Source of the DNA: Thermoleophilaceae bacterium
Lineage (GTDB): Bacteria > Actinomycetota > Thermoleophilia > Solirubrobacterales > Thermoleophilaceae
DNA: 64,000 bases
Reading direction: 5' to 3'
NCBI GenBank assembly: GCA_030447905.1
Contig: JAUJNZ010000007.1
Span: 2,263 to 66,262, forward strand
Every line of letters starts with the position of its first letter. Within the stretch, counting starts at the first letter, position 1. Shown here piece by piece: positions 47,664 to 60,912 of the stretch. The notes under the pieces are model-generated. The model was not told where the DNA came from, searched no databases, and worked only from the letters and a program-made list of their open reading frames with translations. Made by a program: the position numbers and the translations under genes.

Positions 47664-49064
47664 CTAACCGATCGAGCCCTCCATCTCGAGCTGGATCAAC
47701 CGGTTCAGCTCGACCGCGTACTCCATCGGCAGCTCCTTGGTCACGGGCTCGATGAACCCGTTCACGATCATCGAGGCCGCCTCCTCCTCGGTGAGCCCGC
47801 GGCTCTGGAGGTAGAAGAGCTGCTCGTCGGAGATCTTGCCGACCACGGCCTCGTGGGCCACCGTCACGTGCGGGTTCTGGATCTGGATGTCGGGCCAGGT
47901 GTCAGAGCGCGATTCCGGATCCATCATCAGCCCGTCGCACTGCACGCGCGCCTTCGAGCCCTGGGAGTTCGGGCCCATGCGCACGAGGCCGCGGTAGCCC
48001 ATCACGCCGCCGTCCATGGAGATCGACTTGGCGAGGATGTTCGAGGTCGTGTTCGGCGCGAGGTGCATGACCTTGGCGCCCGTGTCCTTCCAGACCTCGC
48101 CCGAGGCGACGCCGACGTTCAGGTGGTCGGCGCGTGCGCCCTCGCCCATGAGGAACGACCCCGGGTAGAGCATCACGAACTTGGCGCCCATGGAGCCGCC
48201 GACCCACTCGACGGTGCCCTCGGCGTCGACGCGCGCCCGCTTGGTGTTGAGGTTGTAGACGTCCTTCGACCAGTTCTGAACGGTCGTGTAGCGCGCCTTG
48301 GCGCCCTCCTTGACGAAGATCTCGACGACGGCGGAGTGCATCGAGTTGACCGAGTAGGTCTGCGCGGTGCAGCCCTCGATGTAGTTCACCTCCGAGCCCT
48401 CGTCGGCGATGATCAGCGTGTGCTCGAAGGTGCCCTCGCCGGCGCCCTCCATGCGGAAGTAGGCCTGGAGCGGCAGGTCGACCTTGACGCCCTTGGGCAC
48501 GTACAGGAAAGAGCCGCCCGACCACACCGCGCCGTGCAGGGCCGAGAACTTGTTGTCCTGGGGCGGCACGCATTGATTCATGAAGTAGGGCTCGACGAGC
48601 TCCGGGTAGTCCGTGACCGCCGTGTCCATCGAGCAGAAGATGATCCCCAGGTCCGCGTACTCCTTCTTGAGCCCCTCGTAGACGGGCTCCTGGCGCCAAA
48701 CGCCGACGACCCCGGCGAGGTGCTCGCGCTCGGCCTGGGGGATGCCGAGCGCCTCGTAGGTCTCCTTCATCTCGGTCGGGACGTCGTCCCAGGAGTCGTA
48801 GCGACCCGCGGTGGGCGGGGAGTAGAGGACGAGCTCGTCGAGGTCGAGGCCCGAGAGGTCCACGCCCCACGTGGGGACCGGCTTGCGCTCGTAGATCTCG
48901 GCCGACTTGCGGCGCTTCTCGCGCATCCAGTCTGGCTCGCCCTTGACCTTCGAAAGCTCCTCAACCACCTCGCGCGAGATGCCCTTGCGCGCGACGAGCT
49001 GACCCTGGTCGTCCTCCTCGATCGGACTCGGCTTGGCGATGCGGGGGTTCTCGGTGATGGCCAT
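47664..49064 (-). CDS. sufB: Fe-S cluster assembly scaffold SufB
   Basis: Core scaffold of the SUF machine, which with SufC and SufD builds Fe-S clusters in the cytoplasm. The protein has 466 residues and typical blocks: YERKPVPTWGVDLSGLDLDE, ALHGAVWSGGSFLYVPKGV, VNYIEGCTAQTYSVNSMHSAVVEI (the conserved Cys), QNWSKDVYNLNTKRA, HLAPNTTSNILAKSIS, VQCDGLMMD and DEQLFYLQSRGL with the C-terminal helix region. Normally it is adjacent to sufD and sufC; here they are about 10 kb away. It has its own promoter and a GAGGAT ribosome site. Confidence 0.97.
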   Translation of the reverse strand: MAITENPRIAKPSPIEEDDQGQLVARKGISREVVEELSKVKGEPDWMREKRRKSAEIYERKPVPTWGVDLSGLDLDELVLYSPPTAGRYDSWDDVPTEMKETYEALGIPQAEREHLAGVVGVWRQEPVYEGLKKEYADLGIIFCSMDTAVTDYPELVEPYFMNQCVPPQDNKFSALHGAVWSGGSFLYVPKGVKVDLPLQAYFRMEGAGEGTFEHTLIIADEGSEVNYIEGCTAQTYSVNSMHSAVVEIFVKEGAKARYTTVQNWSKDVYNLNTKRARVDAEGTVEWVGGSMGAKFVMLYPGSFLMGEGARADHLNVGVASGEVWKDTGAKVMHLAPNTTSNILAKSISMDGGVMGYRGLVRMGPNSQGSKARVQCDGLMMDPESRSDTWPDIQIQNPHVTVAHEAVVGKISDEQLFYLQSRGLTEEEAASMIVNGFIEPVTKELPMEYAVELNRLIQLEMEGSIG

Positions 49065-49099
49065 GGTGTCAAATCCTCGCTACGGGGTCGGAAATGGGT

Positions 49100-49105
49100 A
49101 TTCTA
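49100..49105 (-). promoter_or_regulatory. -10 box of sufB (TAGAAT)
   Basis: TAGAAT on the minus strand, followed by a 35-nt leader with GAGGAT before the ATG. No -35 is clear. The sequence AATACCC next to it resembles half of the Rrf2 gene's operator region. Confidence 0.45.
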
Positions 49106-49287
49106 GCGGGGATGGGGGTCGCTGCAGTCGCGGACCACGGTCGGCGCGTCCTCCCCTTGGGCGACCGGGCGCAGGGCCCTTTTACTCAAGCCGGTGAGCG
49201 CGAAGCTTCGTGCAACGTTTCTGAAAGGTCGAGCCCCCACAGTGGCCTCCTTCGCCCGTCTGGCGTACTTCAACCGAGGGAGTTCTC

Positions 49288-49887
49288 ATGGTCCGCACGT
49301 TTACCGGCACTTGCGCGGCAACGCGGTCGCTTACGTTGCCCTGTTCTTCGCGCTCGGGGGGACCGCTTACGCTGCCGCCACCGTGGGCAGCGCGCAGGTC
49401 GTGGACAACTCGCTGCTGAGCAGGGAGTTGAGGGATAACGCCGCGGTCCTCGGTCGAGATGTGGTGAACGACAACGTGCCCGGCGGCGGGCTGACGGGGT
49501 CCGACAACCATGAGACAACGCTCGGGCCGGTCCCCTGCGGCCGGGAGCGCAGGCTTCGCCGGTTGTGCCGACTTTTCGAATTACGCCGGTGCCGCCGGCG
49601 TTATAGGCGGTGGCCAGGAGATCGGCGACGTCACCCCGATCGGGGGGTTTGACAATGGAGAGTCGTCCGCCAGCTGTCCATCGGGCTACCTCGCAACCGG
49701 GGGAGGGTACGCGCGAGACGTCGATCAGGCGCTCAAGCTCGCCTATGCGGTGGTGGGCTGCGAGCTCCTGGCGATCGCCTGGCTGCGCAGGCGATACCTG
49801 CGCGTATCGCTCGCGGGGTCGCTGACCCAGGTGACCCTCGCCGGAGGGCTCGTGGCGGCCGTCGGCGTGGCCGTCGGGCATGGCTGA
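49288..49887 (+). pseudogene. Frameshifted chimera: surface-protein N-terminus and VIT-like membrane C-terminus
   Basis: The ATG at 49288 follows a good GAGGGAG and reads MVRTFT, but homology-like sequence (HLRGNAVAYVALFFALGGTAYAAA, SAQVVDNSLLSRELRDNA, GGLTGSD) continues in another frame and after about 49530 returns to the first (AAGSAGFAGCADFSNYAG, CPSGYLATGGGYARD). These pieces match a common family of exported actinobacterial proteins with a signal helix. The last 50 codons (LAYAVVGCELLAIAWLRRRY, LAGGLVAAVGVAVGHG) instead look like the final helices of a VIT1/CCC1-type metal transporter. Two compensating frameshifts and a foreign tail indicate a decayed, rearranged locus. A GTG at 49194 is an alternative start in the middle frame. 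Confidence 0.6.
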
Positions 49888-50055
49888 CCGCGAACGGGCG
49901 CTCGCGGCGCGCTCGGAGCGGCGTCGTGGTGGCGAAGAAAGCCCTCGCTCTGCCCAGACGCGCCCAGGCCTGTGTCGCCCTCGCCGAGATCTCGGACGTG
50001 GGGGCGCTTCGAACTGGTCAACCGTGGCTCGCTAGCGCCCCGGGTCGGCCCCGCG

Positions 50056-50061
50056 TACGGT
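50056..50061 (+). promoter_or_regulatory. -10 box of the membrane glycosyltransferase gene (TACGGT)
   Basis: TACGGT ends 7 nt before the GTG at 50069, supporting that start. Confidence 0.4.
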
Positions 50062-50068
50062 GTCGTAG

Positions 50069-51565
50069 GTGGGCGCAGCGAAGGTCCCCCGGCCGAGCGA
50101 GCGGTCGCCGGGCTCGGTATGCGGTCGCCGGCCGGCGGAGGTCTGTCCCTCGAGGCCGAGCCTCCTCTTCACGCGCTCTGACCTCGGCGTCGCCGTCGGC
50201 CTCTCCGCAGCGCTGGCCCTGGCCTCGCTCGCCCTGCCCTCCGCACCGGGCTACGACCCGTGGTCGTGGCTCATCTGGGGCCGGGAGCTGGCGAGCCTTG
50301 ACCTGAGCACGAGCGAGGGACCGGCGTGGAAGCCGCTGCCGGCGATGGTGACCGCAGCGATCGCGCTCTTGGGTGAAGAGATCGCGCCGCCGGTCTGGCT
50401 CGTGATCGCCCGAGCCGGCGCGATCCTCGCCGTCCTCGTCGCGTTCGTGCTGGCCCGGCGGCTCGCCGGAGGTTCGATCGCCGCGGGGGTCGCGGCCGTC
50501 GCCGGGGTCCTCCTGATCCCGGGCTGGATCGAGCACGCGGCGACCGGCAACGCCGAGGGGCCGCTGACCGCCCTCCTCCTGCTCGGGCTGGCCGGACTGC
50601 TCGAGGGGAGGCTTCGCGCGGCGCTCGCCCTGCTCGCGGTCGCAGCGCTGATCCGGGTCGAGGTCTGGCCGTTCCTGGCCCTTCTCGTGGCGGCGGTGTG
50701 GCGACGAGACGGGAAGGCCCGGCCCTGGCTGGTCGCCGGGAGCGTCGGCGTGATGGCGCTCTGGTTCGTCCCCGAATGGCTCGCCTCGGGCGACCCTCTT
50801 CGTTCCGCCGACCGTGCCCGGATGCCGAACCCGGGGGCTCCCGCGCTCGCGTCGCGTCCCGCGCTGGCCACGCTGGCCGAAGCGGCCCGCGGCCCCCACC
50901 CGGTGGCCCTCGTCGGCCTGGTTCTGCTCGCGCTCCCCGGATCGGGACGCCGGGGGGCCCGCGAGGCGCTTCTGGCTGGCGTCGCCGGAGTCGCCTGGGC
51001 CCTCCTCGTCGCCGCCATGAGCGAGCTCGGCTTCTCGGGCGAGGCGCGCTACCTGGTGCCCGGGAGCGCCCTCGTCGTCGTCGCGGGGACGGCCGGCCTC
51101 TTCCTCGTCGCGTCGGCGGCTCGGGAGGGTAACGCGGGAGAACCGAGCCTGGCGCTCGCGGGAGTGGTGGCGACCGCGGTTGCTCTGACGGCGCTCGACC
51201 GGACCGACATCATCGGCGAGCAGAGCGCCCGCGCAGCGCACGGGGCGCTCCTTGCCGCCGATCTCGACCGGGCTATCGACCGCGCGGGCGGGGCGGGGCG
51301 GCTTCTAAGGTGCGGGCGTCCGTACACCGGCCGCTACCGCGGTCCGCTGCTCGCCTGGGCGCTCGGCGTCCCCAAGGCGGCCGTCGACTTCTCACCGTCC
51401 CGGCCGGGGGTCGCGTTTCGCTCGCGCCTGACCCCGGCGAGCCGCGTCGAGCCCCCGATGCCCCCGCCGCAGTGGCGTATCCGAACCGCCCGCTGGGAGA
51501 TCGCCGGGTCCTGCCGGCGCACGGCGGCGCAGCGTGGCAGTGGGTTAGGGTACCCTAATCCCTAG
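50069..51565 (+). CDS. Multi-spanning membrane protein, GT-C glycosyltransferase-like
   Basis: A 498-residue integral membrane protein with about ten helices. PGYDPWSWLIWGRELASLDLS in the first outer loop has the acidic residue arrangement of GT-C enzymes, and EGPAWKPLPAMVTAAIALLG and LIRVEVWPFLALLVAA follow as in ArnT/PMT-like proteins; ELGFSGEARYLVPGSALV is a later loop. The C-terminal 100 residues form a soluble extracellular domain with two Cys (RLLRCGRPYTG and AGSCRRT), which may form a disulfide. Donor and acceptor are unknown. Residues 1-35 are atypical, so translation might begin later. Its last codons contain the palindrome at 51545. Confidence 0.7.
   Translation: MGAAKVPRPSERSPGSVCGRRPAEVCPSRPSLLFTRSDLGVAVGLSAALALASLALPSAPGYDPWSWLIWGRELASLDLSTSEGPAWKPLPAMVTAAIALLGEEIAPPVWLVIARAGAILAVLVAFVLARRLAGGSIAAGVAAVAGVLLIPGWIEHAATGNAEGPLTALLLLGLAGLLEGRLRAALALLAVAALIRVEVWPFLALLVAAVWRRDGKARPWLVAGSVGVMALWFVPEWLASGDPLRSADRARMPNPGAPALASRPALATLAEAARGPHPVALVGLVLLALPGSGRRGAREALLAGVAGVAWALLVAAMSELGFSGEARYLVPGSALVVVAGTAGLFLVASAAREGNAGEPSLALAGVVATAVALTALDRTDIIGEQSARAAHGALLAADLDRAIDRAGGAGRLLRCGRPYTGRYRGPLLAWALGVPKAAVDFSPSRPGVAFRSRLTPASRVEPPMPPPQWRIRTARWEIAGSCRRTAAQRGSGLGYPNP
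51545..51558. promoter_or_regulatory. 14-bp perfect palindrome, candidate iron-regulator operator
   Basis: TTAGGGTACCCTAA is a perfect palindrome located in the last codons of the upstream gene and about 78 bp before the sugar-dehydrogenase/iron-importer operon. A TATGCT box lies at 51574-51579. The outer TTAGG/CCTAA halves are the ends of the DtxR/IdeR iron box, although the known box has a 19-bp span. Control of the following iron transport genes by a DtxR-family regulator is therefore a reasonable inference. Confidence 0.6.
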
Positions 51566-51573
51566 TGCGCCAG

Positions 51574-51579
51574 TATGCT
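51574..51579 (+). promoter_or_regulatory. -10 box of the dehydrogenase/iron-transport operon (TATGCT)
   Basis: TATGCT, 15 bp downstream of the palindrome, so the palindrome would cover the -35 region. The leader to the GTG at 51636 is about 50 nt. Confidence 0.4.
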
Positions 51580-51635
51580 TTGCCTACGTCTTCGCCCCTC
51601 GCCCGCCCGCCGGGGGCCTCGACCGGTCGTCCTCG

Positions 51636-52799
51636 GTGAGCGGTGCCTCGAGTCACGCCCACCGAGTCGGACGGTCACGCTCTCTGCGAATCGGTGCGGC
51701 GGTTCTGCTGGCGCCGATCGCCGCGGGCGTGGCCTACGCCCTCGACCGGGAGGGAGACGTGAGCCGGCCGGGCCCGCACCGAGACGAGCTGCGCCTGGTG
51801 ACGCTCGCTCAAGGGCTCGAGGGGCCGACCGGCCTCGCGTTTCGCCCCGGCGATCCCGACGGCCTCTACGTCACCGAGCAGACCGGGCGCATCCGGGTCG
51901 TCGAGGAGGGCCATGTTCTTCCTCGACCCTTCCTCGACCTGCGCTCGAGGGTGCTCTCGGGTGGGGAGCGCGGGCTGCTCGGCTTGGCGTTTGCGCCCGA
52001 TCACCGGCGCTCCGGGCTGCTCTATGTCCACTACACGAACCGCCGCGGCGACACCCGGGTTGTTCGCTACCGCGCTCGCGGCGATCGCGTCGAGGCCGGC
52101 TCGGCACGGACCCTGCTCTCGCTCCGCCAGCCGTACGAGAACCACAAGGGCGGTCAGCTTGCTTTCGACCGCCGCGGCAGGCTCTACGTCGGCCTGGGCG
52201 ACGGCGGCTCGGCCTTCGACCCCGAACGCCGCGGGCAGGACCTCGGCACGCCCCTGGGCAAGGTCCTGCGTCGCGAGGTCGGGCGTCCCGGAGCGAAGTG
52301 GGAGACGGTGGCCTACGGGCTGCGCAACCCGTGGCGCTTCTCCTTCGACCGCGCCACCGGCGACCTCTGGATCGCCGACGTCGGCCAGGATCGCCAGGAG
52401 GAGATCGACCTGCGGCCGGCCGGCGAGCGCGGCCTCGTGAACTTCGGGTGGAGCGCGTACGAGGGCACCTATCGCTGGCGTACGCGGGCGGTCAACCCGC
52501 GCGGGAGGCTCGCCGCCCCGGTCACCGCCTACGGGCGCCGCGACGGCTGCTCGGTGACCGGCGGCTATGTCTATCGCGGCCGGGCGTTGCCCCGCCTGCG
52601 TGGGCGCTACGTCTACGGCGACCTGTGCACGGGCACGATCTGGAGCCTGCGCCGGCGACCGGGCTCTCGACCCCTGGTCCGCCGCGAGCGGGTGAAGCTG
52701 CCGCTGCTCACATCCTTCGCCGAGGACGGAAGCGGCGAGCTCCACGCCGTGAGCCTGGACGGCCGGGTCGTCGCCCTGCGGGCCCCCCGGACACGATGA
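51636..52799 (+). CDS. PQQ-dependent sugar dehydrogenase family (GSDH) protein
   Basis: A 387-residue exported six-bladed beta-propeller of the soluble glucose/sorbosone dehydrogenase family. Residues 18-36 are a signal anchor (LRIGAAVLLAPIAAGVAYAL). EGPTGLAFRPGDPDGLYVTEQ opens the first blade, GGERGLLGLAFAPDHR includes the family GLLG-x-AF motif, NHKGGQLAFDRRGRLYVGLGDGG the His and GDGG region, VAYGLRNPWRFSFD the Arg-Asn substrate loop, and WIADVGQDRQEEID a calcium loop. Members oxidise aldoses with PQQ, but many homologs have unknown activity. Its stop overlaps the iron-binding protein gene (ATGA), which is an unusual pairing. Confidence 0.87.
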   Translation: MSGASSHAHRVGRSRSLRIGAAVLLAPIAAGVAYALDREGDVSRPGPHRDELRLVTLAQGLEGPTGLAFRPGDPDGLYVTEQTGRIRVVEEGHVLPRPFLDLRSRVLSGGERGLLGLAFAPDHRRSGLLYVHYTNRRGDTRVVRYRARGDRVEAGSARTLLSLRQPYENHKGGQLAFDRRGRLYVGLGDGGSAFDPERRGQDLGTPLGKVLRREVGRPGAKWETVAYGLRNPWRFSFDRATGDLWIADVGQDRQEEIDLRPAGERGLVNFGWSAYEGTYRWRTRAVNPRGRLAAPVTAYGRRDGCSVTGGYVYRGRALPRLRGRYVYGDLCTGTIWSLRRRPGSRPLVRRERVKLPLLTSFAEDGSGELHAVSLDGRVVALRAPRTR

Positions 52800-53806
52800 C
52801 TCGGTCGGCGCCACTCGCCCTGCTCGCCCTGGTGCTCGCTGGCGCCGGCTGCGGCGGCGCCGGCGGCGGTGGAGAGGACGACGCCCGGCGCCTGACCCTC
52901 TACTCCGGTCGCTCCGAGGAGCTCGTCGGGCCGCTCTACGATCGCTTCGAGCGCGCCACCGGCATCCAGGTCGAGGCCCGCTACGGCGACAGCGGCGAGC
53001 TCGCGGCCACGATCGGCGAGGAGGGCACTGGCAGCCCGGCCGAGGCCTTCTTCTCCCAGGACGCCGGTGCGCTCGGGGCGGTGGCGGCCGGGGGGCGCCT
53101 CGAGCCCTTGCCGCCAGAGCTCCTGCGCCGCGTCGACGCGCGCTTCCGCGACCCCGAGGGGCGCTGGATGGGGGTCTCCGGGCGGGCGCGCGTGGTCGCC
53201 TACGACACCCGCAAGCTGCGACCCGCCGAGCTCCCGGACACGATCTTCGCCTTTACCGACCCCCGCTGGCGCGGGCGCATGGGCCTGGCGCCGACCAACG
53301 CCTCCTTCCAGGCCTTCGTGAGCGCCATGCGGCTTGCGGTCGGCGACGAGCGCACGCGCGCGTGGCTCGAGGGCATCGCGCGAAACCGCCCGGTGCTGCT
53401 CGAGAACAACATTCAGACGCTCGAGGCGATCGCCCGCGGGGAGATCGAGGTGGGGTTTGTCAACCACTACTACATGTACGAGCTGCGCCAGGAACGGCCC
53501 GACCTGCCGGTCGATAACCACTTCACGCGCCCGGGGGATCCCGGGTCGCTCGTGAACGTCTCGGGGATCGGCCTGCTCGAGGACAGCCCCGAGGCGCGCC
53601 GGTTCGCCGAGTTCCTGCTCGACGTCGAGGGCCAGCGCTACTTCGCCACCGACACCGACGAGTACCCCCTGATCCCCGGCGTCCGCCCCGACGAGGCGCT
53701 GCGCCCGCTCGCGGAGATCCAGGGCCCCGACGTCCGCCTCGGCCAGCTCGGGGCGAAGCTGCCCTCGACCGTCGAGCTCATCCGTGAGGCCGGCCTCACC
53801 CCGTGA
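52796..53806 (+). CDS. Iron(III) ABC transporter substrate-binding lipoprotein
   Basis: The 336-residue binding protein of an FbpABC/Sfu-type ferric iron importer. The signal ends in the lipobox LAGAGC at residue 19, so it is lipid-anchored outside the membrane. LTLYSGRSEELVGPLYDRFE is the usual FbpA/FutA opening, EAFFSQDAGALGAV and VVAYDTRKL follow, and NHYYMYELRQ near residues 222-230 has the tyrosine pair that binds iron. The gene starts within the dehydrogenase stop and its own stop overlaps the permease start, so three genes are translationally linked. Confidence 0.92.
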   Translation: MTRSAPLALLALVLAGAGCGGAGGGGEDDARRLTLYSGRSEELVGPLYDRFERATGIQVEARYGDSGELAATIGEEGTGSPAEAFFSQDAGALGAVAAGGRLEPLPPELLRRVDARFRDPEGRWMGVSGRARVVAYDTRKLRPAELPDTIFAFTDPRWRGRMGLAPTNASFQAFVSAMRLAVGDERTRAWLEGIARNRPVLLENNIQTLEAIARGEIEVGFVNHYYMYELRQERPDLPVDNHFTRPGDPGSLVNVSGIGLLEDSPEARRFAEFLLDVEGQRYFATDTDEYPLIPGVRPDEALRPLAEIQGPDVRLGQLGAKLPSTVELIREAGLTP

Positions 53807-55416
53807 CCGCCCTGCGGCGTGCCGGGCGGTCGCCGCGACTGCCCTCGCCGCTGCTGACCGCCGCGGCGGCGCTCGTGGCTGCCGCCTGCGCGCTGCCGCT
53901 CGCCTACCTCCTGGTGCGGGCCGCCTCGGGCGGCTCGGCGGCGTGGTCGGTGCTCGCCCGGCCGCAGACCGCGGAGACAGTGGCGCGCACGGTCGCGCTC
54001 GTGACGGCCGTCACCCTCGGGGCGACCACGGTCGGCGGAACGCTCGCCTGGCTCGTCGAGCGCACCGATCTGCCGCTGCGGCGGATGTGGGCGGTCGCCG
54101 CGGCGTTGCCGCTCGCCATCCCGAGCTACGTCGCGGCCCTGGCGCTGCTTGCGACGCTCGGGCCGGGCGGGGCGCTCAGCCGGGCGGTTCCCGGCGCGGG
54201 CGCCGTCGACATCACCGGCTTCCCGGGCGCCGGACTGGCCTTGATCCTCTCCACCTACCCCTACGTCTACCTGTTGACCGCCGCGGCGCTGCGCCGCGCC
54301 GATCCCGCGCTCGAGGAGGCGGCCCGCGGCCTCGGGCGCTCGGTTCGCGCCGTGCTCTTCCGGGTGACCCTTCCCCTCGCCCGTCCCGCGCTCGGAGCGG
54401 GAGCCCTGCTCGCCGCGCTCTACGCCCTCTCCGACTTCGGCGTCGTCTCGCTGATGCGCTTCGACGCCCTCACCCGCGTGATCTTCCAGCAGTACCGGAC
54501 GCTGTTCGATCGTACCCCGGCGGCGGTGCTCGGGTTGGTGCTGGTCGTTCTGACGGTGATCGTCCTGGTCCTCGAAGCGCGGGCCCGCGGACGGGCGGCA
54601 TCAAGAGCCGCGTCGACCGCCTCGCGGCCGGCGCCGCCCCAGGCGCTCGGGCGCTGGCGACCGGTGGCGGTCGCTTTCTGCGCCGTGGTCGTTGGCCTGG
54701 CGCTTGTGCTGCCACTCGGCGTGCTCGGCTTCTGGACCCTGCGCGGGGCGGCGGGCGCCGGCCTCTCGGCCGAGGTCGTTACACCGGCGGTCAACTCGCT
54801 TGCGGTCTCGCTCGGCGCGGGAGCGGTTGCGACCGTCGCCGCCCTGCCGGTGGCGTTGCTCGTCGTGCGCGATCCGCGCGCGCTCACGCGCGGCCTCGAG
54901 CGCCTGGCCTACGCGGCCAACGCCCTGCCCGGAGTGGTGATCGCGCTCGCGCTCGTCTTCTTCGCCGCCCGCTACGCCGGGGCGGTGTACGGAACGCTGG
55001 CAGTGCTCATGTTCGCCTACCTCGTCCGTTTCCTGCCCCAGGCCCTGTCGGGAGCCCGCACGGCGTTGCTGGCCGTCAGCCCCCAGCTCGAGGAGGTCGC
55101 CCGGGCGCTCGGCCGTGGGCCGCGGAGCGCGTTTGCCGCGGTGACCCTGCCGCTCGCCGCACCCGGCCTGCTCGCCGGCGCGGCGATCGTCTTCCTGAGC
55201 ACGATGAAGGAGCTCCCGGCGACCCTGTTGCTGCGCCCGATCGGCTTCGACACGCTCGCCACCGAGGTCTGGACGGCCACTTCCGTCTCGGCGTACTCGC
55301 GGGCGGCCCCGGCCGCGCTGTTGCTCGTGGCCGTCGCGGCCCCGATCGTGCTGCACTTGACCGCGCGCCCGGACCGGCACTCCCGGAGGGGGGCCGAGGG
55401 GTTGGGCGCCGGATGA
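53803..55416 (+). CDS. Iron(III) ABC transporter permease, two fused domains
   Basis: Membrane channel of the importer, 537 residues with about 12 helices in two tandem BPD domains. Each domain has an EAA loop that docks on the ATPase: LEEAARGLGRSVRAVLFRVTLP near residues 168-190 and LEEVARALGRGPRSAFAAVTLP near 428-450. This tandem architecture is that of FbpB/SfuB. The start is a GTG overlapping the binding-protein stop (GTGA). Export of iron is excluded by the family; substrate could also be another ferric complex. Confidence 0.92.
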   Translation: MTALRRAGRSPRLPSPLLTAAAALVAAACALPLAYLLVRAASGGSAAWSVLARPQTAETVARTVALVTAVTLGATTVGGTLAWLVERTDLPLRRMWAVAAALPLAIPSYVAALALLATLGPGGALSRAVPGAGAVDITGFPGAGLALILSTYPYVYLLTAAALRRADPALEEAARGLGRSVRAVLFRVTLPLARPALGAGALLAALYALSDFGVVSLMRFDALTRVIFQQYRTLFDRTPAAVLGLVLVVLTVIVLVLEARARGRAASRAASTASRPAPPQALGRWRPVAVAFCAVVVGLALVLPLGVLGFWTLRGAAGAGLSAEVVTPAVNSLAVSLGAGAVATVAALPVALLVVRDPRALTRGLERLAYAANALPGVVIALALVFFAARYAGAVYGTLAVLMFAYLVRFLPQALSGARTALLAVSPQLEEVARALGRGPRSAFAAVTLPLAAPGLLAGAAIVFLSTMKELPATLLLRPIGFDTLATEVWTATSVSAYSRAAPAALLLVAVAAPIVLHLTARPDRHSRRGAEGLGAG

Positions 55417-55477
55417 TCGGCGCCGCATCGGCTATACGTGCGGACATGACCGGGTTGCGGCGATCGCCGAGACGCCC

Positions 55478-56545
55478 ATGAGCGTCTGCCTGCGAGGGGT
55501 GGCGAAGGCCTTCGGCACGACCGAGGCCGTCCGGGAGGTCGACCTCGACATCGGCCGCGGCGAGCTCTTCACGGTGCTCGGACCGAGCGGCTGTGGCAAG
55601 ACGACCCTGCTGCGCCTCGTCGCCGGGTTCGAGCGACCGAGTGCGGGCGAGGTCCGGGTCGGCGACCGGCTGGTCGCCGCCGACGGCGCCTGGATACCGC
55701 CCGAGCGGCGGCGGATCGGGATGGTCTTCCAGGACTACGCGCTCTTCCCGCACCTGAGCGTCGAGCGCAACGTCGCCTTCGGGCTGTCGCGGCGCGAGCG
55801 CCGGCGCGAGGGTCGGGGCGGCGCGGCTCCGAAGGCTCGCGCCGCACTCGAGCTCGTCGGCCTCCAGCACAAGGCCGAGCGGCTCCCGCACGAGCTGTCC
55901 GGAGGGGAGCGCCAGCGGGTGGCGCTCGCCCGCGCGCTCGCGCCGGAGCCCGAGCTCGTCCTGCTCGACGAGCCGTTCTCGAGCCTCGACGCGACCCTGC
56001 GCGCCGACCTGCGCCGCGAGGTCGAGCTCATTCTGCGTGAGGCCGAGGCGACGGCCGTCCTCGTCACCCACGACCAGGAGGAGGCCCTGTCGCTGGCCGA
56101 CCGGCTGGCGGTCATGCGGGCGGGGCGGGTCGTCCAGACCGGGGCGCCCGAGGAGGTCTACGCGCGACCGGCCGATCGCTGGGCCGCGGGGTTCCTGGGG
56201 GAGGTCAACGTCGTGTCGGGGGTCAGGCGCGGGGACCGGGCGGTCGAGACTTGGCTGGGGAGCTTCGACGCGCGTGGCGTCGCGGCGGGCGTGGGCGGCG
56301 CGTCGGCGGCCGCGGGTAGCGTCCATGTGGCCGTTCGCCCCGAGCACCTCGCCCTCCGGGTCGACCGCCTCGGCAACGCCGAGATCGTCGACCGCGAGTT
56401 CCGTGGACACGACGTGCTCTACCGCCTGCGCCACGAGGTGGGGGGGACGGTGTTGGTGCAGCTTTCCTCGCTCGAGCTGTTCGAGGTGGGCGAGCGGGTG
56501 CACGTGCGACCGGCGCGGGCGGCGGTGGCTTCGGTGGTGGATTGA
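55478..56545 (+). CDS. Iron(III) ABC transporter ATP-binding protein
   Basis: ATPase of the importer, 355 residues. VLGPSGCGKTTLLRLVAGFE is Walker A, GMVFQDYALFPHLSVERNV the Q-loop, HELSGGERQRVALARALAP the signature, LVLLDEPFSSLDATLR Walker B, and VLVTHDQEEALSLADRLAV the H-loop. Residues about 240-355 are the C-terminal TOBE-like regulatory domain (VHVAVRPEHLAL, VLVQLSSLELFEVGERVHVRP). The start ATG is 61 bp after the permease gene, the only loose junction in the operon. Confidence 0.93.
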   Translation: MSVCLRGVAKAFGTTEAVREVDLDIGRGELFTVLGPSGCGKTTLLRLVAGFERPSAGEVRVGDRLVAADGAWIPPERRRIGMVFQDYALFPHLSVERNVAFGLSRRERRREGRGGAAPKARAALELVGLQHKAERLPHELSGGERQRVALARALAPEPELVLLDEPFSSLDATLRADLRREVELILREAEATAVLVTHDQEEALSLADRLAVMRAGRVVQTGAPEEVYARPADRWAAGFLGEVNVVSGVRRGDRAVETWLGSFDARGVAAGVGGASAAAGSVHVAVRPEHLALRVDRLGNAEIVDREFRGHDVLYRLRHEVGGTVLVQLSSLELFEVGERVHVRPARAAVASVVD

Positions 56546-56794
56546 GAACCGCTTCAGGGCGACGGCCGGCTGCCGCCACCTCGAGGGGAGCGCGGGGGGA
56601 GCACGTGGAGCCGGCGCCGGTGCGGGCTCCGCCTCGCCCGGGGTGGCGGACCTGAACGGTGCACCCCCGGGCGCGGGCGGTCCTCGTCCTCGGTCGGCGA
56701 CGGAGATGGCGCGCGGCCGAGCCCAGGAGTCGTAGGCGCCTGCGGCGTGCGACCGGCCGCACGTTGAGGATTTCGCGGCGGCTCAGACCGCCGA

Positions 56795-57187
56795 CTAGGA
56801 GGCGCTCTCGGGCCACGTGGCCTCGCCGCCGGCCGCCCCGCGCATCACCTTCAGGCTCAGCAGCGCGCACTTGCGGCGGGTGGGGGAGATGTCGATCCCG
56901 AGCTGCTCGAGCACCCAATCGGCGCTCAGCGCCGGGATCTCGGCGACCGGCTTTCCGATCAACTCCTCCGAGGTGATCGAGGCCGCGGCCTGGGAGATCG
57001 CACAGCCCTGGCCGTGGAAGCGCAGGTCGGCGATTCGGCCCTCGCCGTCGACGGTCAGGTGGACACCCAGCTCGTCGCCGCAGAGGGGATTGTGGTCGTG
57101 GAAGTCGAGATCGTGGGGGTCAAGCTCGCCGAAGTTGCGCGGGTTCTTGTAGTGGTCGAGGATGTAGTCGCGGTAGAGCTCGTCCAT
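56795..57187 (-). CDS. sufU: Fe-S assembly sulfurtransferase/scaffold SufU
   Basis: SufU accepts sulfur from SufS through a zinc-held cysteine and passes it to SufBCD. The 130-residue protein has all landmarks: YILDHYKNPRNFGEL, NPLCGDELGVHL with the first Cys and Asp, FHGQGCAISQAAASI with the active Cys, and RRKCALLSLKVM with the third. The insertion ADWVLEQLGIDISPTRRKC marks SufU rather than IscU. It is divergent from the ROK kinase gene, which separates it from sufS. Confidence 0.95.
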   Translation of the reverse strand: MDELYRDYILDHYKNPRNFGELDPHDLDFHDHNPLCGDELGVHLTVDGEGRIADLRFHGQGCAISQAAASITSEELIGKPVAEIPALSADWVLEQLGIDISPTRRKCALLSLKVMRGAAGGEATWPESAS

Positions 57188-57197
57188 GGCTACGTCA

Positions 57198-57203
57198 AGG
57201 CTA
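57198..57203 (-). promoter_or_regulatory. -10 box of sufU (TAGCCT)
   Basis: TAGCCT on the minus strand ends 10 nt before the sufU ATG in the 36-bp gap with the divergent kinase gene, which shows sufU need not rely on the sufCDS promoter. Confidence 0.4.
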
Positions 57204-57223
57204 GCCGCAGGACCCGCGAGAAT

Positions 57224-58213
57224 GTGCCCGTGGGCGCCACGACCTCCGAAGGGCGCCTGGTCGTCGGCGTAGACGTCGGCGGAACCAAGATCGTCGCCGG
57301 CGCGGTGCGGGGGACCGAGATCGTCGAGACCGTCGAGCGCCCGACCGACGTCTCGAGCGGCGAGTCGGTCCTCAGCGGGATCGAAGACGCGGTGCGCGAG
57401 ATCGCGGCGCGTGACGAGCCGCCCGCCGCAGTCGGGATCGGGGCACCGTCGCAGATCGACTACCCCGCCGGCCGCGTCCTCTCGAGCGTCAACATCCCGG
57501 TCTCCGGGGTCCGCCTGCGCGACGACATCTCGGCTCGCCTGAGCCTACCGGTCTACCTCGACAACGACGCCAACTGCGCCGCCCTGGCCGAAGCCGAGCT
57601 CGCCGAGGGAGGATCGATCGGCCATCTCGTCATGCTGACGCTCGGAACCGGCGTGGGCGGAGGCGTCGTCGTGGACGGCCGGGTCTTTCGCGGCGCGAGC
57701 GGTCTCGGGGCCGAGCTCGGCCACCTCGTAATCGAGACCGAGGGCCCTGAGTGCCCCGGGAACTGCCCCAACCGCGGCTGCCTCGAGGCCCTGTGCAGCG
57801 GTCAGGCGCTCGCGCGCGACGCCGGCGCACTGGGTGCGACTCAGCCGGATTCGCGCCTCGCCGAGCTCGCGCGGGAGCGCGGCGGTCCGCCGACGGGGAC
57901 CGACGCGGTTACCGCGGCCCGCGAGGGCGATCCCGACGCGGTCGGCCTGTTCGAGCGCTTCGGGACCTCGCTCGGCGTCGGCATGGCGGGCCTGATGAAC
58001 GCCTTCGAGCCCGAGCGCCTCGTGATCGGAGGAGGCCTCTCGGCCGTCGCCGAGCTCTACCTCCCGCGGGCGGAAGAGGAGGCCCGCCGGCGCGTCCTGC
58101 CGGAGATCGGCGCGCGCGTGGAGATCTCGGTGGCACGTAGCGGAGCGCTCGCCGGGCTAATCGGGGCGGCCAGGCTCGCCGTCACCGAACGAGCGAGGGC
58201 CCTCAGCGGCTGA
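57224..58213 (+). CDS. ROK-family glucokinase
   Basis: ATP-dependent sugar kinase of 329 residues. LVVGVDVGGTKIVAGAVRG is the phosphate-1 loop, VGIGAPSQIDYPAGRVLSS and YLDNDANCAALAEAEL hold the catalytic Asp (DNDA), LTLGTGVGGGVVVDG is phosphate-2, and GHLVIETEGPECPGNCPNRGCLEAL has the ROK zinc ligands, here with CPGNCPNRGC in place of the common CxCGxxGC. GTG at 57224 or 57230 could start it. It sits alone on the plus strand inside the suf region, dividing sufU from sufS. Confidence 0.9.
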   Translation: MPVGATTSEGRLVVGVDVGGTKIVAGAVRGTEIVETVERPTDVSSGESVLSGIEDAVREIAARDEPPAAVGIGAPSQIDYPAGRVLSSVNIPVSGVRLRDDISARLSLPVYLDNDANCAALAEAELAEGGSIGHLVMLTLGTGVGGGVVVDGRVFRGASGLGAELGHLVIETEGPECPGNCPNRGCLEALCSGQALARDAGALGATQPDSRLAELARERGGPPTGTDAVTAAREGDPDAVGLFERFGTSLGVGMAGLMNAFEPERLVIGGGLSAVAELYLPRAEEEARRRVLPEIGARVEISVARSGALAGLIGAARLAVTERARALSG

Positions 58214-58339
58214 TCCGCAACCGTCCTACAAGAGGCGATCCGCTCAGGCGCCAGGGAGGCGTCGCAGGCCAGTCGCCGCCCCCGGACCGAAGGGCCGCGT
58301 CGCCCGCCGGAGGCGTCGCTCGCCACGTCCACCGCGCCG

Positions 58340-59593
58340 CTACGGGCCGAAGATCTCCCTCGCCCGCTCGAGCGCCCCCACCAACCGGTCCACGTCCTCG
58401 CGCGTGTTGTAGACGTGGAAGGACGCCCGAGCGGTCGCCGGCACTCCCAGCCGCCGCATGAGCGGCTGCGCGCAGTGGTGGCCCGCCCGTACGCAGACTC
58501 CCTCGCGGTCGCAGATCTCGGCGATGTCGTGGGGGTGGATCCCGTCGAGGGAGAAGGAGATCGCGCCGCCGCGGCGCTCGAGCTCGAGCGGGCCGAGGAC
58601 GCGCAGGCCCGCCAGCCCTCCCAGGCGCTCGAGCGCGTAACCCGTCAGCGAGCGCTCGTGCTCGCGGACCCGCTCCATGCCGAGCTCGGCGAGGTAGTCG
58701 ATCGCCGCGCCGAGCCCGACGCCCTCGGCGATCGGTGAGGTACCGGCCTCGAACTTCCAGGGCAGGTCGTTCCAGGTCGAAACCTCGTAGCCGACATACG
58801 AGATCATGTCGCCCCCGCCGAGGAAGGGCGGCATCTCCTCGAGCAGCTCGCGCCGCCCGTGCAGCACGCCGATCCCCGTGGGCCCGAGCGCCTTGTGTCC
58901 CGTCCAGATGTAGAAGTCGCAGCCGATCTCGCCCACGTCGACCGGTATCTGCGGGACCGCCTGTGAGCCGTCGACGAGGGTCACCGCGCCCGCCGCACGC
59001 GCCCGCGCGCAGATCTTCGCCACCGGGTTGATCGTCCCGAGCACGTTCGAGACGTGGACGCAGCCGAGCAGCCGCACGCGCCCCGAGCCGAGCGCGGCGT
59101 CGAGATCGGAGAGCGACAACTCTCCCTCCTCCGACACCGGCAGCCATCGCAGGGAGGCGCCCGTCGCCTGGCAGGCGAGCTGCCAAGGGACGATATTGGA
59201 GTGATGCTCCATCTCGGTGATCAGCACCTCGTCGCCGGGGCCGAGGCTCGAGCGGCCCCACGCGCTCGCGACCAGGTTGATCAACTCGGTGGCGTTCTTG
59301 GCGAAGACCGTGGCCTGCGACTCGGAGCCGCAGAAGCGCGCCACCCGCTCGCGGGCGCCCTCGTAGAGGTCGGTCGCCTCCTGTGCGAGACCGTAGACCC
59401 CGCGGTGGATGTTCGCGTTCGAGCGCTCGTAGTAGGCGCTCATGGCATCGATCACCGCGCGCGGCTTCTGCGACGTCGCCGCCGAGTCGAGGTAGGCGAT
59501 CGGGTTGCCGTTGTGCTCGCGGCGCAGGACGGGAAAGTCGCCGCGTAGCTCGAGCGGCGGAGCGGTGGGCGTCCCGGTCGCCGGCGCGGCCAT
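58340..59593 (-). CDS. sufS: Cysteine desulfurase SufS
   Basis: PLP enzyme that takes sulfur from cysteine and hands it to SufU. The 417-residue protein contains YLDSAATSQKPRAVIDAM, NANIHRGVYGLAQEATDLYEGAR, TEMEHHSNIVPWQL (His stacking on PLP), LVDGSQAVPQIPVDV (Asp), FYIWTGHKALGPTGIGVL with the PLP Lys, and CVRAGHHCAQPLM with the catalytic Cys in its short loop, the group II (SufS) arrangement. It starts 5 bp after the sufD stop and is last in the Rrf2-SufC-SufD-SufS unit. Confidence 0.96.
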   Translation of the reverse strand: MAAPATGTPTAPPLELRGDFPVLRREHNGNPIAYLDSAATSQKPRAVIDAMSAYYERSNANIHRGVYGLAQEATDLYEGARERVARFCGSESQATVFAKNATELINLVASAWGRSSLGPGDEVLITEMEHHSNIVPWQLACQATGASLRWLPVSEEGELSLSDLDAALGSGRVRLLGCVHVSNVLGTINPVAKICARARAAGAVTLVDGSQAVPQIPVDVGEIGCDFYIWTGHKALGPTGIGVLHGRRELLEEMPPFLGGGDMISYVGYEVSTWNDLPWKFEAGTSPIAEGVGLGAAIDYLAELGMERVREHERSLTGYALERLGGLAGLRVLGPLELERRGGAISFSLDGIHPHDIAEICDREGVCVRAGHHCAQPLMRRLGVPATARASFHVYNTREDVDRLVGALERAREIFGP

Positions 59594-59598
59594 CGCCC

Positions 59599-60912
59599 TC
59601 AGCCCCGCTCGGCGATGAACTCGACGACCTGTTCCTCGGCGGCCTCGAGCTTCGCCGCGATCCTTCGCCGCACGAGCGCCTCGAGCGACGGATCCTCGAG
59701 TGCTTGCACGACCTCCTCGAAGTAGCCCTCGACGAGGATCCGCACCGCCTCCGAGCGGGGAATCCCGCGGGTCATCATGTAGAAGACCAGCTCGTCGTCG
59801 AGCTCGCCGACGGTGCCGCCGTGCGAGGCCGAGACGTTGTCGGTCTCGACGATCAGCGACGGGATGGCGTCGGTCCTCGCCCTGGGGGAGAGCAGCATCG
59901 AATGGGTCTGCAGGTAGGTGTGCGACTCCTGCGCGCCGCGGACTATCTGGATCAGCCCCTCGTAGGAGGCCCGGGACTCGCCGGTAAGCGCTCCCTTCCA
60001 CACGGTGTCGCCGTTGGTGTGGGGCTGCTCCTTGAGGTCTGTGGTGAACAGGTCGAGGTGCTCGGCGCCCTCGGTGAAGTAGATCCCCTTGTGGCGCATG
60101 TCGGAGCCGGACTCGGCGGTGACGATGTCGAGCGTCTGCCTGGTCAGGTGGCCGCCCAGGTGGATCGGGGTCCACGCGCAGTGGGCGTCGCGGGCGATCT
60201 CGACGCGCTTGGTCGAGATGTCGTGTACCTCGCCGGCGCCCCAGTCCTGGAAGTGGGCGAGTCGGACCTGCGAGCCGGCGCGGCAGTAGAGCTCGAAGGC
60301 GCCCGAGTGGAGGGCCTGGCCGTCGAGGTCGGGGGCCAGGTCGTACTCTCGAATGCGGCACTGAGAGAGCTCGCCGACCACCCCGAGCGTGTGAGCGTAC
60401 TGGGCCACTCCCGGCTCGTCGAGCAGGTAGACGACCTGGAGCGGCTTCTCGACTGCGACCTCGGGCGGCACCCATACGAAGGCGCCGCCCGTCCAGAACG
60501 CCGCGGTCGCCGCGGGGAACTTGCCCTCCCCCTCGGACAGGCGGCGCATGTACCACCGCTCGACGGCCTCGGGCCGCTTCTCGAACGCCCGCTCGAGGGA
60601 GGAGAGGACCACGCCCTGCTCGGCGACCTCGGGGTCGAGCCAGCAGAGCACCGTGCTCGCCCCGCGCTGGACGATCAGGCCGCCGAGCTCGTCGGGCTCG
60701 CCGATCGCCTCGGCCACGACTGGGTCCAGATCCTGCACGGAGTCGAGGGGCTCGTACCGGCGTGGCTCGAGCTCGTCGAGGCGCAGGCGCTTGAGGGAAG
60801 TCGTCCAGAAGCCCGAGCGTCGCCAGGTCGGCACGGGCTCGCGCTCGTAGACCTCGAGCGCGGCGCGCCGGCGCTCCTCCAGGAAGCGGTTCGTCGATGC
60901 GCTAGCCGGCAC
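59599..60912 (-). CDS. sufD: Fe-S cluster assembly protein SufD
   Basis: SufB-related partner in the SufBC2D complex, needed for iron entry. The 437-residue protein has EPVPTWRRSGFWTTSLKRL near the start, WTGGAFVWVPPEVAVEKPLQVVY in the middle, and the basic core SDMRHKGIYFTEGAEHLDLFTTDL, ending with TVGELDDELVFYMMTRGIPRSEA. In the place of the SufB cysteine block it has no equivalent Cys, which separates it from SufB. It overlaps the sufC end by 11 bp, so the ATPase and SufD are co-translated. Fe-S target genes such as ispH lie elsewhere in the window. Confidence 0.95.
   Translation of the reverse strand: MPASASTNRFLEERRRAALEVYEREPVPTWRRSGFWTTSLKRLRLDELEPRRYEPLDSVQDLDPVVAEAIGEPDELGGLIVQRGASTVLCWLDPEVAEQGVVLSSLERAFEKRPEAVERWYMRRLSEGEGKFPAATAAFWTGGAFVWVPPEVAVEKPLQVVYLLDEPGVAQYAHTLGVVGELSQCRIREYDLAPDLDGQALHSGAFELYCRAGSQVRLAHFQDWGAGEVHDISTKRVEIARDAHCAWTPIHLGGHLTRQTLDIVTAESGSDMRHKGIYFTEGAEHLDLFTTDLKEQPHTNGDTVWKGALTGESRASYEGLIQIVRGAQESHTYLQTHSMLLSPRARTDAIPSLIVETDNVSASHGGTVGELDDELVFYMMTRGIPRSEAVRILVEGYFEEVVQALEDPSLEALVRRRIAAKLEAAEEQVVEFIAERG

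Follow-up and report, generated by a model that had tools for sequence, protein, structure and literature searches.

A conserved 14-bp palindrome before a ferric importer operon in Thermoleophilaceae is a predicted half-site operator of the DtxR/IdeR kind

The window analyzed here is a 64,000-nucleotide stretch of contig JAUJNZ010000007.1 from a Thermoleophilaceae bacterium (assembly GCA_030447905.1). Upstream of a transcription unit that encodes a sugar dehydrogenase and the ferric-iron importer FbpABC, this window contains a perfect 14-bp palindrome that is conserved before fbpA homologs across the family and corresponds to one half of the known IdeR/DtxR iron box. Judging from sequence comparison, this palindrome is most probably a DtxR/IdeR-type operator responsive to iron, in a 14-bp half-site form, that is read by a DtxR-family protein denoted here group I. 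In an iron-sufficient cell, a metal-loaded dimer of this order-specific repressor would bind TTAGG-N4-CCTAA over the promoter/start region and shut off the sugar dehydrogenase-fbpABC unit; on a drop in iron, it would dissociate and allow the ferric importer to be produced.

The palindrome and its conservation

The following features were delineated at the site:

51545-51558, no strand assigned: operator, 14-bp perfect palindrome TTAGGGTACCCTAA, IdeR/DtxR half-site TTAGGNNNNCCTAA (from the sequence, the genome scan, and relatives)
51544-51574, no strand assigned: 31-bp block comprising the operator and TCCCTAGTGCGCCAGT, presumed operator/promoter footprint (identical in the same-genus genome G009)
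51546-51551, + strand: TAGGGT, putative -10-like hexamer (TANNNT) inside the operator (from the sequence)

The original prediction described a perfect palindrome before an iron importer operon, and this is what the sequence contains: TTAGGGTACCCTAA lies at 51545-51558, with fbpABC downstream, and is the sole match in the window even when 3 mismatches are allowed. Palindromicity by itself is unremarkable (16 perfect 14-bp palindromes in the window versus 13.7 expected). The A+T content of TTAGGGTACCCTAA, 8 of 14, is by far the highest, with the remaining perfect 14-bp palindromes at 4 of 14 or less, in agreement with the earlier remark that A/T-rich symmetric DNA is rare in this window. Exact TTAGGNNNNCCTAA occurs once in the whole genome (2.58 Mb in 25 contigs), and this copy is the window palindrome. 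With 0.32 TTAGGNNNNCCTAA and 0.0008 copies of the exact 14-mer expected per genome from composition, a lone copy in one genome is weak evidence, and the decision has to come from comparison between genomes. Relaxed matching is of no use in this genome because TTAGGNNNNCCTAA matches at 2 or fewer mismatches are rarer than control (78 versus 177); among the one-mismatch sites of the genome, none was found at a recognizable iron gene when the flanking open reading frames (ORFs) were read by eye.

Sixteen further family genomes yielded full-length fbpA homologs (L022-L037), and the box is present upstream of all 16, with 15 exact copies and a single mismatch in L032. Fourteen of these sites belong to L023-L028 and L030-L037 (13 exact and L032); the other two, both exact, are in separate regions, namely, L103 for genome G009 and L069 for genome G019. 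Exact TTAGGNNNNCCTAA was found 100 times in 31 genomes of the family, compared with 4 matches to the reversed control (25-fold excess). When 399 genomes of the class were sampled, it was found 580 times in 176 genomes of the order, compared with 57 reversed controls (p = 2e-110). At the level of the class, families f10 (21:1, site to control) and f6 (8:0) are enriched, f11 weakly (7:1), and f8 at the borderline (22:12); no enrichment was detected in families f5, f7, and f9 of the same sample. Beyond the order, copies of the exact palindrome stand before an EfeU/FTR1 gene (L315) and, at a distance of 52 bp, before an IdeR-like gene encoding Cys102 and SAPTVTEM (L316, family f8), and a box precedes feoAB (L326).

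A functionless palindrome that arose by chance would be in keeping with the abundance of 14-bp palindromes in the window and with the 0.3 TTAGGNNNNCCTAA expected per genome, but conservation at the orthologous position over many genera, together with the 25-fold family-wide excess over control, makes this hardly credible. In G009, the sole same-genus relative that could be aligned, 51544-51574 is identical and the flanks on both sides have diverged; the element proposed originally, which extended to 51579, is thus conserved up to 51574, with its remainder in diverged sequence.

A single half-site instead of the 19-bp box

In its classical form, the DtxR/IdeR box spans 19 bp and consists of two TTAGGNNNNCCTAA copies overlapping at a 5-bp offset. 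Together, 96 family sites yield the consensus (W)G-TTAGGGTNNCCCTAA-C(W), that is, TTAGG-GTNC-CCTAA with flanking G/C and A/T, and the information in these sites is limited to approximately 18 bp (G-TTAGG-GTNC-CCTAA-C, with A/T on either side). At the 5-bp offset, 0 of 95 sites have another half-box with up to 3 mismatches (chance expectation, 0.14 per offset). Where second copies occur, they are mostly 14, 15, 17-18, and 20-21 bp away, these being upper counts because a pair can be counted from both members. The fbpA homologs in records from two Streptomyces, a Micrococcales, and a Microbacteriaceae carry a long box, with 2-3 mismatches to the 19 bp; in named Thermoleophilia records, only the 14-mer precedes the fbpA homologs. 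Phylogenetic footprinting, the other genes with a box, and the exact match to the experimentally bound IdeR half-site all support the proposal of a short, lineage-specific form of the DtxR/IdeR-type iron box; the suggestion that this form is a compressed 19-bp box has to be replaced, given that the site is exactly one half, TTAGG-N4-CCTAA.

Like the 19-bp IdeR/DtxR box TTAGGTTAGSCTAACCTAA of Corynebacterium, Mycobacterium, and Streptomyces, the sites described here consist of TTAGG/CCTAA repeats, are placed before iron uptake genes, and occur together with a DtxR-family regulator; moreover, fbpA orthologs of other actinomycetes carry the long form. They differ from that box in containing one of the two overlapping half-sites, in the non-overlapping arrangement of extra copies, mostly 14-21 bp apart, and in the preference for a GTNC spacer. 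In Saccharopolyspora erythraea, IdeR binds the 14-bp half-site as a single dimer, with a dissociation constant of about 78-102 nM, and the 14-mer was proposed as the consensus instead of the 19-mer (PMC8464063). The window site contains two CCTAA repeats with a 4-bp spacer, as in that half-site consensus, and the consensus itself, TTAGGNNNNCCTAA, is the same letter for letter. The half-site of S. erythraea was a designed site and a side target (nuo), whereas here it would be the standing operator of an order-wide regulon.

The window site could also be a degenerate classical box that still accommodates two dimers, one of them on weak half-sites. A third CCTA-like element (TCCCTAG) lies near the site, and GTGGGTTAGGGTACCCTAA, which extends the site upstream, differs from the 19-bp consensus at no more than 4 positions. 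This CCTA, however, is located 7 bp on, not 5; the offset half-box is missing from all 95 sites and offsets of 14-21 are enriched; and the logo of the family sites contains no matching information at the offset positions. We therefore regard a two-dimer box as improbable and favor binding of one dimer to the half-site.

The box is located within 30 bp of the predicted start codon in 66 of 94 family cases, and at 0-8 bp in 32, distances that are biased downward by the choice of the longest ORF. This position and the possible -10 hexamer TAGGGT inside the box are consistent with a repressor binding over the promoter/start, the arrangement described for IdeR (PMC10317159). The original prediction placed the palindrome over the -35 region, for which the sequence offers no support: a -35 consensus was searched for under the palindrome and not found, and, if anything, the box would cover the -10 and start region.

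Genes that carry the box

In the family, we gathered 84 distinct operator regions and classified the neighboring genes, called with a simple script based on GC content at third codon positions (GC3), by clustering and Pfam. At least 49 of the 84 regions carry an iron, iron-sulfur (Fe-S), or metal label, a tally made without a random-gene-set baseline. The labels are FbpA (10), ZIP (8), GSDH-fbp (7), SufB (7, usually divergent), FTR1/EfeU (6), siderophore-type binding proteins (5), FbpC (4), ferritin (2), Fe2+-transport protein (2), and imelysin, Fea1, and Fur (1 each); HtaA occurs 3 times in the Pfam tally of box neighbors. The ZIP proteins among these targets may have zinc or manganese as cargo. 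By these annotations, the sites stand before genes of iron acquisition and storage, across relatives rather than within the genome under study. The expectation that the motif would recur at other iron-gene promoters appears to fail in this genome, with its single copy, and is clearly borne out among relatives.

Control of the operon by a Fur-family protein via the palindrome could be envisaged, given the one Fur homolog in the genome and one relative with a box before a FUR gene. The palindrome, however, equals the IdeR half-site letter for letter. Fur boxes are A/T-rich, and the palindrome motif differs from the known Fur box. Such control appears very improbable.

Candidate regulators

The genome (G000) encodes four DtxR-family proteins and one Fur, and two DtxR groups, I and M, recur across the family:

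G000:C21:29513-30250: group I DtxR-family protein, candidate reader of the box (PF01325 and PF02742 matches)
C2:2400-3104 of the same genome: group M, MntR-like DtxR paralog (Asp10/Glu102; best curated match, an MntR model)

Close relatives of the group I protein are present through most of the order, and none were found outside the order. The best PDB match of group I is IdeR/DtxR. Ser37, Pro39, Thr40, and Gln43 are DNA contacts of IdeR, with the Gln43 contact being dispensable (PMC8464063); in group I, S37 is retained in 22 of 25 members, P39 and T40 in all 25, and Gln43 is replaced with Glu in all 25. The metal-site residues H79, E83, H98, E105, and H106 are kept. Against the curated actinobacterial DtxR equivalog NF053665, group I scores 123 bits, below the cutoff of 290, nor does it show the MntR combination of Asp or Asn at position 10 with Glu102, having Glu10/Glu102 instead. 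With the carboxylate-site repressors MntR and DR2539, group I shares Glu102, with Glu at position 10 where MntR has Asp or Asn, but it is of the IdeR type in its DNA contacts and closest solved structures, and the box targets are mainly iron genes. Papers on DR2539 and Haloferax iron yielded no binding motif for comparison.

The box is present in 140 of 149 genomes with group I versus 17 of 27 without it (Fisher p = 5e-5), a descriptive co-occurrence given that the genomes are related and many are incomplete. Genus g24, an exception that apparently lacks group I, encodes a diverged copy with the same SAPTVHEM recognition helix and eroded metal ligands. These copies (L306, L307, and L308) keep the recognition helix and have lost the metal ligands E105/H106, which suggests altered or lost metal sensing.

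Several observations weigh against an iron operator read by group I. This group has Glu in place of Met10 and Cys102 (24 of 25 each), as well as in place of Gln43, and Met10 and Cys102 are credited with increased iron selectivity (PMC10317159); with Glu10/Glu102/Glu43, Fe2+ selectivity is therefore not given by the group I ligands. Family f10 has boxes, two of them before fbpABC, and the two genomes checked, G207 and G148, show only MntR-like DtxR, so that the reader in this family may be group M or some other protein. Boxes are few or absent in some of the genomes with group I (genus g29), and 35 of the 84 operator regions lack any gene labeled as iron-related. Finally, the genome under study holds one site only, and one same-genus genome (87% complete) has no box at all.

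Should the second, MntR-like group M protein read the box, the operon would answer to manganese, or to manganese and iron, as with DR2539 of Deinococcus. The wide distribution of group M in the family, the f10 boxes at fbpABC in the company of M-like DtxR only, and the ZIP transporters among the box targets all point in this direction. However, the group M recognition helix lacks P39 in all members and T40 in nearly all; in the genome under study, group M adjoins a heavy-metal P-type ATPase, not the importer; in genus g33, where genome G144 has only group M, 0 of 4 sampled genomes have the box; and the target list is dominated by iron genes. On balance, we find reading by group M unlikely and retain group I as the candidate reader. 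Two side observations concern these proteins and sites. In the genome under study, two adjacent MntR-like DtxR paralogs, one with a diverged helix-turn-helix, are encoded at L148 860-3104, and family f10 (L294, L287, and L324) has two boxes 32 bp apart before fbpABC.

The broader proposition, to which we assign about even chances, is that an order-wide iron regulon operates on single-dimer half-sites, with a regulator that combines an IdeR-like helix with a Glu10/Glu102 carboxylate metal site, and with non-overlapping copies 14-21 bp apart replacing the two-dimer box. If so, iron control works without the sulfur ligands that are thought to provide iron selectivity, and the metal ligands and targets of group I are at odds with the current selectivity rule. 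Among openly licensed PMC papers, the string TTAGGNNNNCCTAA was found in PMC8464063 only, and the one paper found there on DtxR together with Thermoleophilia dealt with another subject. The present evidence adds the prediction, based on sequence, that one order uses the half-site as a regular iron operator. A 2023 review of IdeR lists half-sites in other species, and the role of IdeR there, as open questions (PMC10317159). Hundreds of candidate half-site operators in one order, many at textbook iron genes, would be a natural answer to the half-site question and provide a ready-made regulon prediction for an actinobacterial group that has received little study.

The ferric importer operon and its surroundings

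The genes around the operator are as follows:

50069-51565, + strand: upstream membrane-protein ORF overlapping the operator, no Pfam match (ORF reading, Pfam)
51636-52799, + strand: GSDH-type (pyrroloquinoline quinone-dependent) sugar dehydrogenase, first gene of the transcription unit (PF07995, E 2e-32)
52796-53806, + strand: fbpA, ferric-iron substrate-binding protein with a Tyr-Tyr iron-ligand motif (best match 7w3w, E 2e-74)
53803-55416, + strand: fbpB, fused two-domain ATP-binding cassette (ABC) permease (PF00528, two stretches)
55478-56545, + strand: fbpC, ABC ATPase with a TOBE domain (PF00005, PF08402)

FbpA is matched by solved ferric-iron binding proteins (best E = 2e-74, 7w3w), and all of ten homologs share its Tyr-Tyr pair. 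The GSDH-type sugar dehydrogenase is the first gene between the box and the fbp genes in seven genomes (the window and L143, L103, L084, L094, L140, and L096). By ORF reading, the importer unit is nested in a suf cluster (window 47664-60912), preceded by sufB and followed by sufU, sufS, and sufD; several relatives have fbpA and sufB in divergent orientation on either side of a common box.

The end of the upstream ORF, with its last six sense codons and stop codon, overlaps the palindrome. Homologs of this membrane protein are divergent from the box in L140 (1617-2966) and L028 (2425-3117) and may be members of the regulon. Elsewhere, a fused phosphodiesterase-glycosyltransferase protein is encoded downstream of the box in seven loci (L085, L089, L073, L099, L120, L124, and L112) and an NAD-dependent epimerase in five (L067, L088, L118, L122, and L126). 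A fatty-acid hydroxylase family protein adjoins the box in three genomes (L077, L092, and L317, the last by similarity of its start).
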